Source of the DNA: Pseudomonadota bacterium
Lineage (GTDB): Bacteria > Pseudomonadota > Gammaproteobacteria > Xanthomonadales > Rhodanobacteraceae
Assembly (NCBI GenBank): GCA_021794575.1
Contig: JAJYQO010000039.1
Location: forward strand, 7,160 to 71,159
Reading direction: 5' to 3'
DNA length: 64,000 nt
Numbering within the stretch: position 1 is the stretch's first letter; each line of letters begins with the position of its first letter. Both the position numbers and the translations under genes were made by a program. Below, one piece after another: positions 30,193 to 34,073 of this stretch. The notes under the pieces are model-generated. The model ran no database searches and was not told the origin of the DNA. It saw only the letters and a program-made list of their open reading frames with translations.

Positions 30193-31434
30193 ATGAGTGC
30201 GCTCGGCACATCGTTCGAGACACGCGTGGGCTTCGTGGTCGAAACCGCGCGGCGCCTGCACCAGTACGGCACCGCAGCCCCACGCCTGGAAATGGCCGTC
30301 GCGCGCATCGGCGAGCGCCTGGGCTTGCGCGTCGAGGTATGGTCCAGCCCGACCGCCATCATCCTGTCGGCCGGCGCGCAACAGCCGCCGCAAGCGAAAC
30401 GCCTGGCCGAGACCACCCAAGTCGTGCGGCTGCCGCCGGGCGACGTCAATCTGGCCAAGCTGTGCAAGGTCGACCGCATCGCCGACCGCGTGATCGCCGG
30501 GGAACTCGACATCGAGGACGGTTTCCGGCAACTGCAGTCGCTGTCCGACCCGGCGCCGCGCTGGATGGCGCCCGCCACGACGCTGGCCTTTGGCGTGGCC
30601 GCGGCGATGGTGGCCACGCTGCTGCACGGCGCCTGGACGGACTTGCTGCTGGCCGGACTGATCGGACTTGCCATCGGGCAGCTGACGGTAAGCAGCGCGC
30701 GTCATCCGCGGCTGGCGGTGGCCAGTGAAGCGATCGCGGCGCTGCTGGCCACGCTGATCGCAGGCGCGGTCAACGCTTTCGTCGTGCCGCTGGCGGTGAA
30801 AACCGTGGTGGTCTCCGGGCTGATCGTGCTGATGCCGGGCATGGCACTGACCAACGCCGTGCGCGAGATCTCAACCCAGCACCTCGCGTCGGGCTCGGCG
30901 CGCATGGCCGGTGCCATGGCCAGCCTGCTGAAGCTCACCTTCGGCGCGCTGGCCGGCGCGCAGATCCTCGATGTACTGGGTTGGCATGGCGCGGGCGCGC
31001 CGCCGCCGCCGGCACCGGCCTGGTTCCTGGCGCCCGCGTTGCTGCTGGGCACGCTGTCCTTCGGTGTGCTGTTCCAGGCCGCAGTGCGCGACTGGCCGCT
31101 GGTCATGCTCGCCGCCATCACCGGCTATCTGTCCACGCGCATGGGCGCCGGGCTGTACGGGCCCAGCTTTGGCGTGTTTGTAGGCGGCCTGGTCGTCGGC
31201 GCGCTCAGCAATCTGTACGCGCGTCACCGGCATCGGCCCGGTGCGCTGGTACGCGAACCGGGCATCATCCTGCTGGTGCCGGGTTCGGTGGGCTTCAGCA
31301 GCGTGTCCGCGCTGCTGGAGCGCAACGTGCCGATCGGAACCGATGCCGGCCTGCTGCTGGTATCGCTGCTGGTGGCGTTGGTAGCGGGCCTGCTGTTCGG
31401 CGATCTGCTGGTCGGTCCCCGGCGCAGTCTGTAG
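30193..31434 (+). CDS. Threonine/serine exporter family protein (ThrE, fused two-domain form)
   Basis: FVVETARRLHQYGTAAPRLEMAVARIGERLGL and a 10-TM hydrophobic region with LMPGMALTNAVREI. Confidence 0.88.
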   Translation: MSALGTSFETRVGFVVETARRLHQYGTAAPRLEMAVARIGERLGLRVEVWSSPTAIILSAGAQQPPQAKRLAETTQVVRLPPGDVNLAKLCKVDRIADRVIAGELDIEDGFRQLQSLSDPAPRWMAPATTLAFGVAAAMVATLLHGAWTDLLLAGLIGLAIGQLTVSSARHPRLAVASEAIAALLATLIAGAVNAFVVPLAVKTVVVSGLIVLMPGMALTNAVREISTQHLASGSARMAGAMASLLKLTFGALAGAQILDVLGWHGAGAPPPPAPAWFLAPALLLGTLSFGVLFQAAVRDWPLVMLAAITGYLSTRMGAGLYGPSFGVFVGGLVVGALSNLYARHRHRPGALVREPGIILLVPGSVGFSSVSALLERNVPIGTDAGLLLVSLLVALVAGLLFGDLLVGPRRSL

Positions 31435-31440
31435 ATCCCC

Positions 31441-31581
31441 GGGCATCCTGCCGCCTGATTCAAAGCGGCCACATGCAAGCAAAACGGACGCGGCAAAGCC
31501 GCGCCGCCTTGGTCGCGACCAGTAGTTGTGTGCTCGTCGCGGCGGCACATCCAGGTGCCGGAGCGGTTTTGCAAACCGCTC
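31441..31581 (+). repeat. 141-bp inverted-repeat arm A flanking the H-NS-family gene
   Basis: Matches the reverse complement of 32085-32225 with about 6 differences by manual alignment (4 substitutions, 2 single-base indels). Confidence 0.95.
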
Positions 31582-31643
31582 TGTAGTCCATAGACAACGA
31601 CACCGGCACAGGGCCGGCGTCGCGGTCCGGCTTGGCGATCCGG

Positions 31644-31973
31644 CTATTTCCTGATCAGCAGATCCGATTCCTTCTTGCCCGCGGCCAGAGCGTCATGGAA
31701 CCAGCGCGGACGCTTGCCGCGGCCGCTCCAGGTCTGCTCGCGATTGGCCGGATTGGCGTACTTGGGCGCCACCGGGGCACCGGTCTTGCGCGCGCGTCGA
31801 CCACGGCCCGCAAACACTTCGTCCACCGTGTAGCCTTCCTGCTTGATAATTTTTTCCAGACGTTCACGCAATGCGCCCAGATTTTCCTTGGCCAGTTCGG
31901 TCTGGCGCAGTCGGGCATGCTCGATCAGCTCGCTGAGTTGCTGGTTATTGAGATTTTTCAGGTCAATGGACAT
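31644..31973 (-). CDS. H-NS histone-like family protein
   Basis: MSIDLKNLNNQQLSELIEHARLRQTELAKENLGALRERLEKIIKQEGYTVDEVF coiled-coil plus C-terminal YANPANREQTWSGRGKRPRWFHDALAAGK (H-NS-type TWSGRGRxPxW motif). Confidence 0.93.
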   Translation of the reverse strand: MSIDLKNLNNQQLSELIEHARLRQTELAKENLGALRERLEKIIKQEGYTVDEVFAGRGRRARKTGAPVAPKYANPANREQTWSGRGKRPRWFHDALAAGKKESDLLIRK

Positions 31974-32084
31974 GCGACATCTCCAGAATGCAGTTGGAAT
32001 GCGGATCGCCAGGTTCGGTCCGGGTACGGCGGCGTAATTCTGGCATGGCATCCGATGCTGCTCAATGCCCGGTGATTCATGAAT

Positions 32085-32225
32085 GAGTGGTTTGCAAAAA
32101 CCGCTCCGGCACCTGGATGTGCCGCCGCGACGAGCACACAAATGCTGGTCGCGACCAAGGCGGCGCGGCTTTGCCGCGTCCGTTTGCCTGCATGTGGCCG
32201 CTTTGAATCAGGCGGCAGGATGCCC
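32085..32225 (-). repeat. 141-bp inverted-repeat arm B flanking the H-NS-family gene
   Basis: Reverse complement of 31441-31581 with about 6 differences. Confidence 0.95.
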
Positions 32226-32322
32226 GGTTTTGCAAACTGATCGAATGCTGCAATAGCCTTGGCGTGGCCGATCATTTCCTGCAATAACGCCCAGCGCTGC
32301 CCGCGCCACGGCACATGCGCAT

Positions 32323-34029
32323 TCAAATGCTGTCGGAACTGATTTTGTCCAGCAGTTCCATGACGTTCAGCATTTCGCTCCGGTCGGCATCGCGGCGACG
32401 GTATTCGAACTGTCCGGCAGCGCTGCTGCGTTCGCTAATGACCACGCGCTGCGGAATGCCGATCAGTTCGATATCGGCAAACATCGCGCCGGGACGCAGC
32501 CCGCGATCGTCCAGCACTACCTCGACGCCGCGTTGCTGCAATTGGGCGTACAGGGCCGACGCCGACGCGTCGACTTCGGCATTGCCTTTCGGATTGATCA
32601 CGCAGATCGCCACTTGCCAGGGCGCCATTGCGGCGGGCCAGCGAATGCCTGCCGCGTCGTGGTTCTGCTCGATGGCGGCAGCCACGATGCGGCTGACACC
32701 GATACCGTAGCAACCCATGTGCGGCGTGACCGCCTTGCCCTGTGCATCCAGCACGCTGGCGTGCATGGCCGCAGCGTACTTCTGACCCAGTTGGAACACG
32801 TGCCCGACTTCGATGCCGCGCGCGATCGCCAGCGCACCGCTGCCATCGGCGGCGGTTTCCCCGGCTTCGACGTTGCGGATGTCGGCGACGCACTGCGGTT
32901 CCGGCAAATCACGGCCCCAGTTGACGCCGCGCAGGTGGAAGCCGGTTTCATTGGCCCCAATCACAAAATCGGACAGCGCCGCCACCGCGCGGTCGGCGAT
33001 CACGGTGATGGCCTTGCGCGGCGCACGCGGCCCGATGAAACCCGGCGCGCCGCCGAGGTAATCGACGATTTCGTCCTCGCGCGCCAGGCGGTACTCGCCC
33101 AGGTCTGGCTGCTTGGCCAGCTTGATTTCGTTGAGCGTGTGATCGCCGCGCACCAGCGCCAGTGCGAAACCGTGTTCGCCCATCAGCGCGACGGATTTGA
33201 CGGTCCGCGCGAGTTCCACTCCCAGCAGTTGCGCAACTTCGGCACAGGTCTTTTGCGTGGGCGTGGCTACTTTCTCCAACGTCTCCCGCGCGGCCGCGCG
33301 CGCACATGGCGCGGGCGCCGCGGCCATTTCGATATTGGCTGCGTAATCCGAAGCGGTGGAAAAAGCGATGGCGTCTTCGCCGGAGTCGGCCAATACGTGG
33401 AATTCGTGGCTGGCGCTGCCGCCGATGGCGCCGGTGTCGGCCTGCACAGCGCGGAATCTCAAGCCCAGGCGCGTGAAAATGCGCGTGTAGGCGTCGTACA
33501 TGTTCTGGTATTCGCGCGCTAGGCATTGCGGATCGAGATGGAACGAATAGGCGTCCTTCATCAGGAACTCCCGCGCACGCATCACCCCGAAGCGCGGCCG
33601 GATCTCGTCACGGAACTTGGTCTGGATCTGGAAGAAATTGACCGGCAGCTGGCGGTAGCTTTTCAGCTCGTTGCGGGCGAAATCGGTGATCACTTCCTCG
33701 TGGGTGGGGCCGTAGCAGTATTCCTGGTCCTTGCGGTCTTTCAGCTTCAGCAGTTGGCCGCCGAATTTCTGCCAGCGCCCGGTTTCGTCCCACAGTTCAC
33801 GCGGCTGGATCGAGGGCATCAACAGCTCGATGGCGCCGGCGCGCTGCATCTCCTCGCGCACGATGGTCTCGACCTTGCGCAACACGCGCAGACCCAACGG
33901 CGTCCAGGTGTAGATGCCGGCGGCCAGCTTGCGCAGCATGCCGGCACGCAGCATCAACTGGTGGCTAATGATTTCGGCATCGGCCGGCACTTCCTTGACG
34001 GTGTTGAGATGGAACTGGCTGAGGCGCAT
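32323..34029 (-). CDS. proS: Prolyl-tRNA synthetase (bacterial type with insertion domain)
   Basis: [94 protein letters not shown]. Confidence 0.96.
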
Positions 34030-34073
34030 CGGTCGGTCCGCTGGAAAGCCGCCAGTGTAGCGGGCGCAATCGC

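Follow-up and report, generated by a model that had tools for sequence, protein, structure and literature searches.

The window that we analyse here is a stretch of 64,000 nucleotides, within which a gene of the H-NS family (hns) lies between thrE and proS and is enclosed by two nearly identical inverted arms. This arrangement raises the question of whether the arms carried hns to its present position, whether they invert or regulate it, or whether they arrived separately around a gene that was already there. We are highly confident in the last of these answers: the arms are copies of one MITE family, placed by two independent insertions of opposite orientation, and hns merely resides between the two gaps that received them. 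The features of the locus are as follows.

30193-31434, + strand: thrE (threonine/serine exporter; PF06738 and PF12821), with copy 1 inserted at its stop codon
31430-31433, no strand: TGTA target-site duplication flanking copy 1 on the left, overlapping the thrE stop codon at 31432-31434
31434-31581, + strand: MITE copy 1, 148 nt, its left terminal repeat shortened by 10 nt (aligned to copy 2 and about 60 other copies)
31582-31585, no strand: TGTA target-site duplication flanking copy 1 on the right
31644-31973, - strand: H-NS family gene, resident and not cargo (PF00816, E 1.5e-17; orthologue beside proS in 13/13 genomes of the genus)
32081-32084, no strand: GAAT target-site duplication flanking copy 2 on the left
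32085-32242, - strand: MITE copy 2, 158 nt, with both terminal repeats (by alignment)
32243-32246, no strand: GAAT target-site duplication flanking copy 2 on the right
32323-34041, - strand: proS (prolyl-tRNA synthetase; Pfam tRNA-synt_2b, tRNA_edit and HGTP_anticodon)

The arms match each other and recur across the genome

Copy 1 and the reverse complement of copy 2 share about 96% identity across a spacing of about 503 nt. The initial annotation had recognized near-identical inverted arms around an H-NS-like gene flanked by thrE and proS; the alignment bears out the arms, with boundaries shifted by a few bases, and the Pfam profiles agree on the three genes. Between the two copies there are 5 or 6 substitutions and two indels of 1 nt, together with a gap of 10 nt where most of the left terminal repeat is gone from copy 1. 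Comparison of the window with itself returns two inverted matches, each at 98% (31482-31570 versus 32097-32185, and 31439-31483 versus 32183-32227), and the window has two exact occurrences of a 42-nt core, compared to 0.00 expected from a shuffle control.

A sequence search of the same genome (2,485,518 bases in 100 contigs) found about 33 matches to the arm at 81-100% identity, many of them full-length. In a first sample, 9 of the 13 genomes in the genus had the arm, and three other genera gave weak matches; a full-length query then raised the count in the genus to ten by adding G004 and detected related sequence in 62 of 234 family genomes, spanning 12 of 26 genera, with clear matches in six (g1, g9, g15, g19, g25 and g44) and marginal ones in the remainder. 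The named records in which the left end is exact are MAGs under the labels Rhodanobacter sp., Lysobacteraceae, Rhodanobacteraceae or Proteobacteria bacterium. Copies are scattered across many unrelated loci and species and, with genes called by a rough rule, are mostly intergenic, many of them only a few bases from a stop codon. The plasmid collection that we searched contained no match to the element.

Two further observations concern its distribution. The window's own genome (G000) holds a second close inverted pair, 0.5 kb apart and without an obvious cargo gene (contig C57, 48779-49575; L007 and L008), and one of these copies adjoins further terminal-repeat-like sequence (GGTTTGCAAACCGG). 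In the G012 assembly, many contigs end about 54 bp into the element, among them C58, C64, C69, C93, C126, C131, C190, C317 and C340; near-identical copies probably broke this assembly, and its gaps may conceal an autonomous relative.

Anatomy of the element and its target-site duplications

The element, a foldback-rich repeat of 142-160 bp, is bounded by imperfect terminal inverted repeats of 18 bp, GATCAGTTTGCAAAACCG and GAGCGGTTTGCAAAACCG, whose consensus ends match at 16 of 18 positions. Full copies typically start with GATCAGTTTGCAAAACCGGGCATCCTG and finish with GGAGCGGTTTTGCAAACCGCTC; they span 139-160 bp (n = 63) and come in two main sizes, 142 and 157 bp, the shorter form being without an internal block. 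Within its roughly 150 bp there are short chance reading frames only, and no transposase or other gene. In the MAGs fen_1225 and LIN-96 (L123 and L134), about 70 bp of extra sequence splits the element mid-way, which suggests a longer and perhaps older form.

The target-site duplication is 4 bp long. Abutting 4-mers are identical at the predicted ends in 38 of 89 records, compared to 0.35 expected, with a peak exactly at these boundaries; some sites were entered on both strands, so that the tally is a strong signal rather than an exact rate. Older copies often lack an intact duplication. When the match is extended to 5 and 6 bases, its pattern suggests C-NNNN-G as the preferred target. The common ends and 4-bp duplications together indicate transposition with a 4-bp stagger, and not duplication by recombination. 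The assignment to the MITEs rests on size, ends, target duplications and empty sites, following published definitions (PMC3733652, PMC2229807), and the initial proposal of a recently mobilized or duplicated dispersed element is borne out by the copy number, the terminal repeats and the target duplications.

We envisage the following mechanism. A DDE-type transposase supplied from elsewhere would bind the terminal repeats and insert the element via a 4-bp staggered cut, and the low cost of insertions in gene gaps, often at stop codons, would explain why copies persist chiefly there.

Copies 1 and 2 inserted independently

The duplications around the two arms are both intact and differ from each other, TGTA/TGTA around copy 1 and GAAT/GAAT around copy 2. 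Two different matched duplications imply two independent insertions. Copy 1 starts within the stop codon of thrE, where TGTA followed by the element's first G recreates TAG at 31432-31434; consequently, the insertion leaves the length of ThrE unchanged.

The two copies are sisters in a tree of copies (support 0.89) and have two nearly private shared variants. Their unusual likeness probably means that one gave rise to the other or that both stem from one recent source; a hop over a short distance would explain it, and so, equally, would subsequent gene conversion between neighbours. The members of the inverted pair on C57 are likewise each other's best match, at 97.4%.

The same locus in related genomes

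The orthologue of hns adjoins proS throughout the genus, and thrE lies on its far side in seven genomes (G000, G002, G003, G005, G008, G011 and, pieced together from two contigs, G012). In these seven, hns has a constant orientation, facing thrE and co-directional with proS. The element, by comparison, comes and goes. Genomes G002 and G003 keep the thrE-hns-proS order without it. G005 has one element in the hns-proS gap, at another position and in the orientation opposite to copy 2, and G011 has a diverged element immediately beside the hns stop. G008 carries one in the thrE-hns gap, opposite in orientation to copy 1, at a site that is empty in G012; reciprocally, G012 carries one at the thrE stop with the duplication TAGC, at a site that is empty in G008.

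The thrE-stop insertions of G012 and of the window lie 2 bp apart in the same orientation. As their duplications differ (TAGC and TGTA), nearly one site was hit independently in two species. The relatives' thrE ends serve as the empty site for copy 1, while close relatives provide no base-for-base empty site for copy 2. Reciprocal empty sites and dispersed copies make the element polymorphic among relatives. The elements entered around a fixed hns, and the gene did not travel along with them. The initial annotation had reasoned that single-copy arms, fixed here in all relatives with no empty site, would argue against mobility or inversion. Contrary to that condition, the arms have many copies and vacant sites occur; mobility thus belongs to the element and not to hns itself.

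Are the gaps around hns preferred targets?

In five of the seven species with conserved order, the gaps around hns have received at least six independent insertions. With about 30 copies per genome and about 2,000 gaps, a rough expectation is well under one insertion outside the window, a figure to be read with the caveats that gaps vary in tolerance and that the locus was picked because it already held two copies. Elsewhere too, elements lie near orthologous genes in another species at several loci (for example L013/L043 and L015/L037), which indicates that the reuse of tolerant gaps is general; the pairs L019/L033, L021/L042 and L024/L143 are plausibly shared by descent. A true hotspot, in which the local terminator structure or DNA-binding proteins would steer insertion, or in which selection would favour insertions that alter hns expression, is doubtful in our judgment.

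Could the arms act on hns?

The initial annotation had suggested that recombination could turn hns around relative to its neighbours thrE and proS; as an invertible switch, this would happen in some cells through exchange between the inverted copies. Long inverted stretches of exact identity, about 0.5 kb apart, are possible substrates for homologous recombination, and the sister status of the two copies could reflect exchange or conversion between them. However, a crossover between inverted copies would mix the duplications. They are unmixed, and the present orientation of hns is consequently either the original one or the product of an even number of inversions; no net inversion has been fixed since insertion. 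Every relative with conserved order has hns in a single orientation, no recombinase gene was noticed alongside, and conservation does not extend to the arms as a pair. We consider a switch very unlikely.

Folding offers a second route to a function. A single strand of copy 2 folds more strongly than shuffled sequences (z -4.4) and copy 1 has terminator-like hairpins within it, as a conserved regulatory or structured RNA element acting on hns might. Strong folding is nevertheless expected of a foldback element. Copies occur at many unrelated genes, and some relatives have none at hns. In the alignment of copies, the changes that depart from consensus pairing fall almost entirely on one side and are seldom compensated, as would fit a foldback element whose copies are young. 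The sole Rfam match is sub-threshold (sucA-II, 27 bits compared to a cut-off of 70), and we take it as chance. An RNA element at this locus is thus exceedingly improbable. Two other suggestions fare no better: we see no sign that the arms are under selection as a pair, and a cruciform formed by pairing of the arms would have to bridge the spacing between them, whereas each copy folds on itself instead.

That the two copies form the ends of a composite mobile cassette moving hns as one unit is hardly credible, for although two related inverted ends do enclose one gene, the single outer duplication and jointly moving cargo of a composite transposon are both missing: TGTA lies outside the left copy and GAAT outside the right, each with its own inner partner, relatives have hns at the same place, flanked by thrE and proS, with neither of these copies, and some 30 other copies in the same genome are without hns.

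Search for the transposase

A search of the genus with paired core terminal repeats found no autonomous partner among the matches listed, with G012, G007 and G001 partly covered. Members of the transposase families PF01609, PF13701 and PF13546 in the genus, where most genomes are fragmented assemblies, had their ends scanned, and none carries the element's ends. The earlier statement that no transposase is nearby holds as far as we searched. Separately, G011 contains two copies of a stretch (C2:9000-15000 and C1:1164500-1170500; L144 and L145) in which a frame of 446 aa lies between diverged elements of inverted orientation, spaced by about 1.8 kb. We rejected this duplicated stretch as an autonomous form, the sole long frame between the elements not being transposase-like by eye.

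Relation to known elements

Known bacterial MITEs include RUP, NEMIS/Correia, ERIC, YPAL/RU-2, Nezha and EFAR (reviewed in PMC2229807, listed in PMC3733652). The present element resembles them in its length (70-300 bp in bacterial MITEs; PMC3733652), terminal inverted repeats (15-30 bp), high copy number and absence of an evident coding role, and also in its intergenic location, foldback structure, target-site duplication and, by inference, mobilization in trans. It differs in sequence and in having a host family of Rhodanobacter/Lysobacteraceae type, and it is G+C-rich, whereas most bacterial MITEs are A+T-rich with TA ends (PMC2229807). RUP and Correia-type elements duplicate TA, compared to 4 bp here. 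YPAL/RU-2 of Yersinia (PMC2229807) is similar in being about 160 bp long, not A+T-rich, without TA ends and flanked by target duplications, but its inverted repeats are internal and its duplications range from 3 to 26 bp, whereas our element has terminal repeats and 4-bp duplications.

REP/BIME sequences with RAYT transposases, such as the Stenotrophomonas repeats (PMC3733652), are also high-copy intergenic palindromic repeats of related bacteria. REPs, however, are palindromes of 20-40 bp tagged GTAG or CGTC that make no target duplication, whereas the present element is about 150 bp long with paired ends; its length and 4-bp target duplications place it outside REP/BIME. Searching the literature by sequence and by topic, we found no description of this MITE family.

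The striking idea of a cassette or switch around a nucleoid protein gene consequently gives way to a plain MITE explanation. What is gained is the ends and the 4-bp target rule of a family that we have not found described, in uncultured relatives of Rhodanobacter and Lysobacteraceae. The same family probably accounts for further intergenic inverted repeats of these genomes, as well as for contig breaks in one or more assemblies. Its recurrence around hns poses a small, testable question of insertion-site choice.
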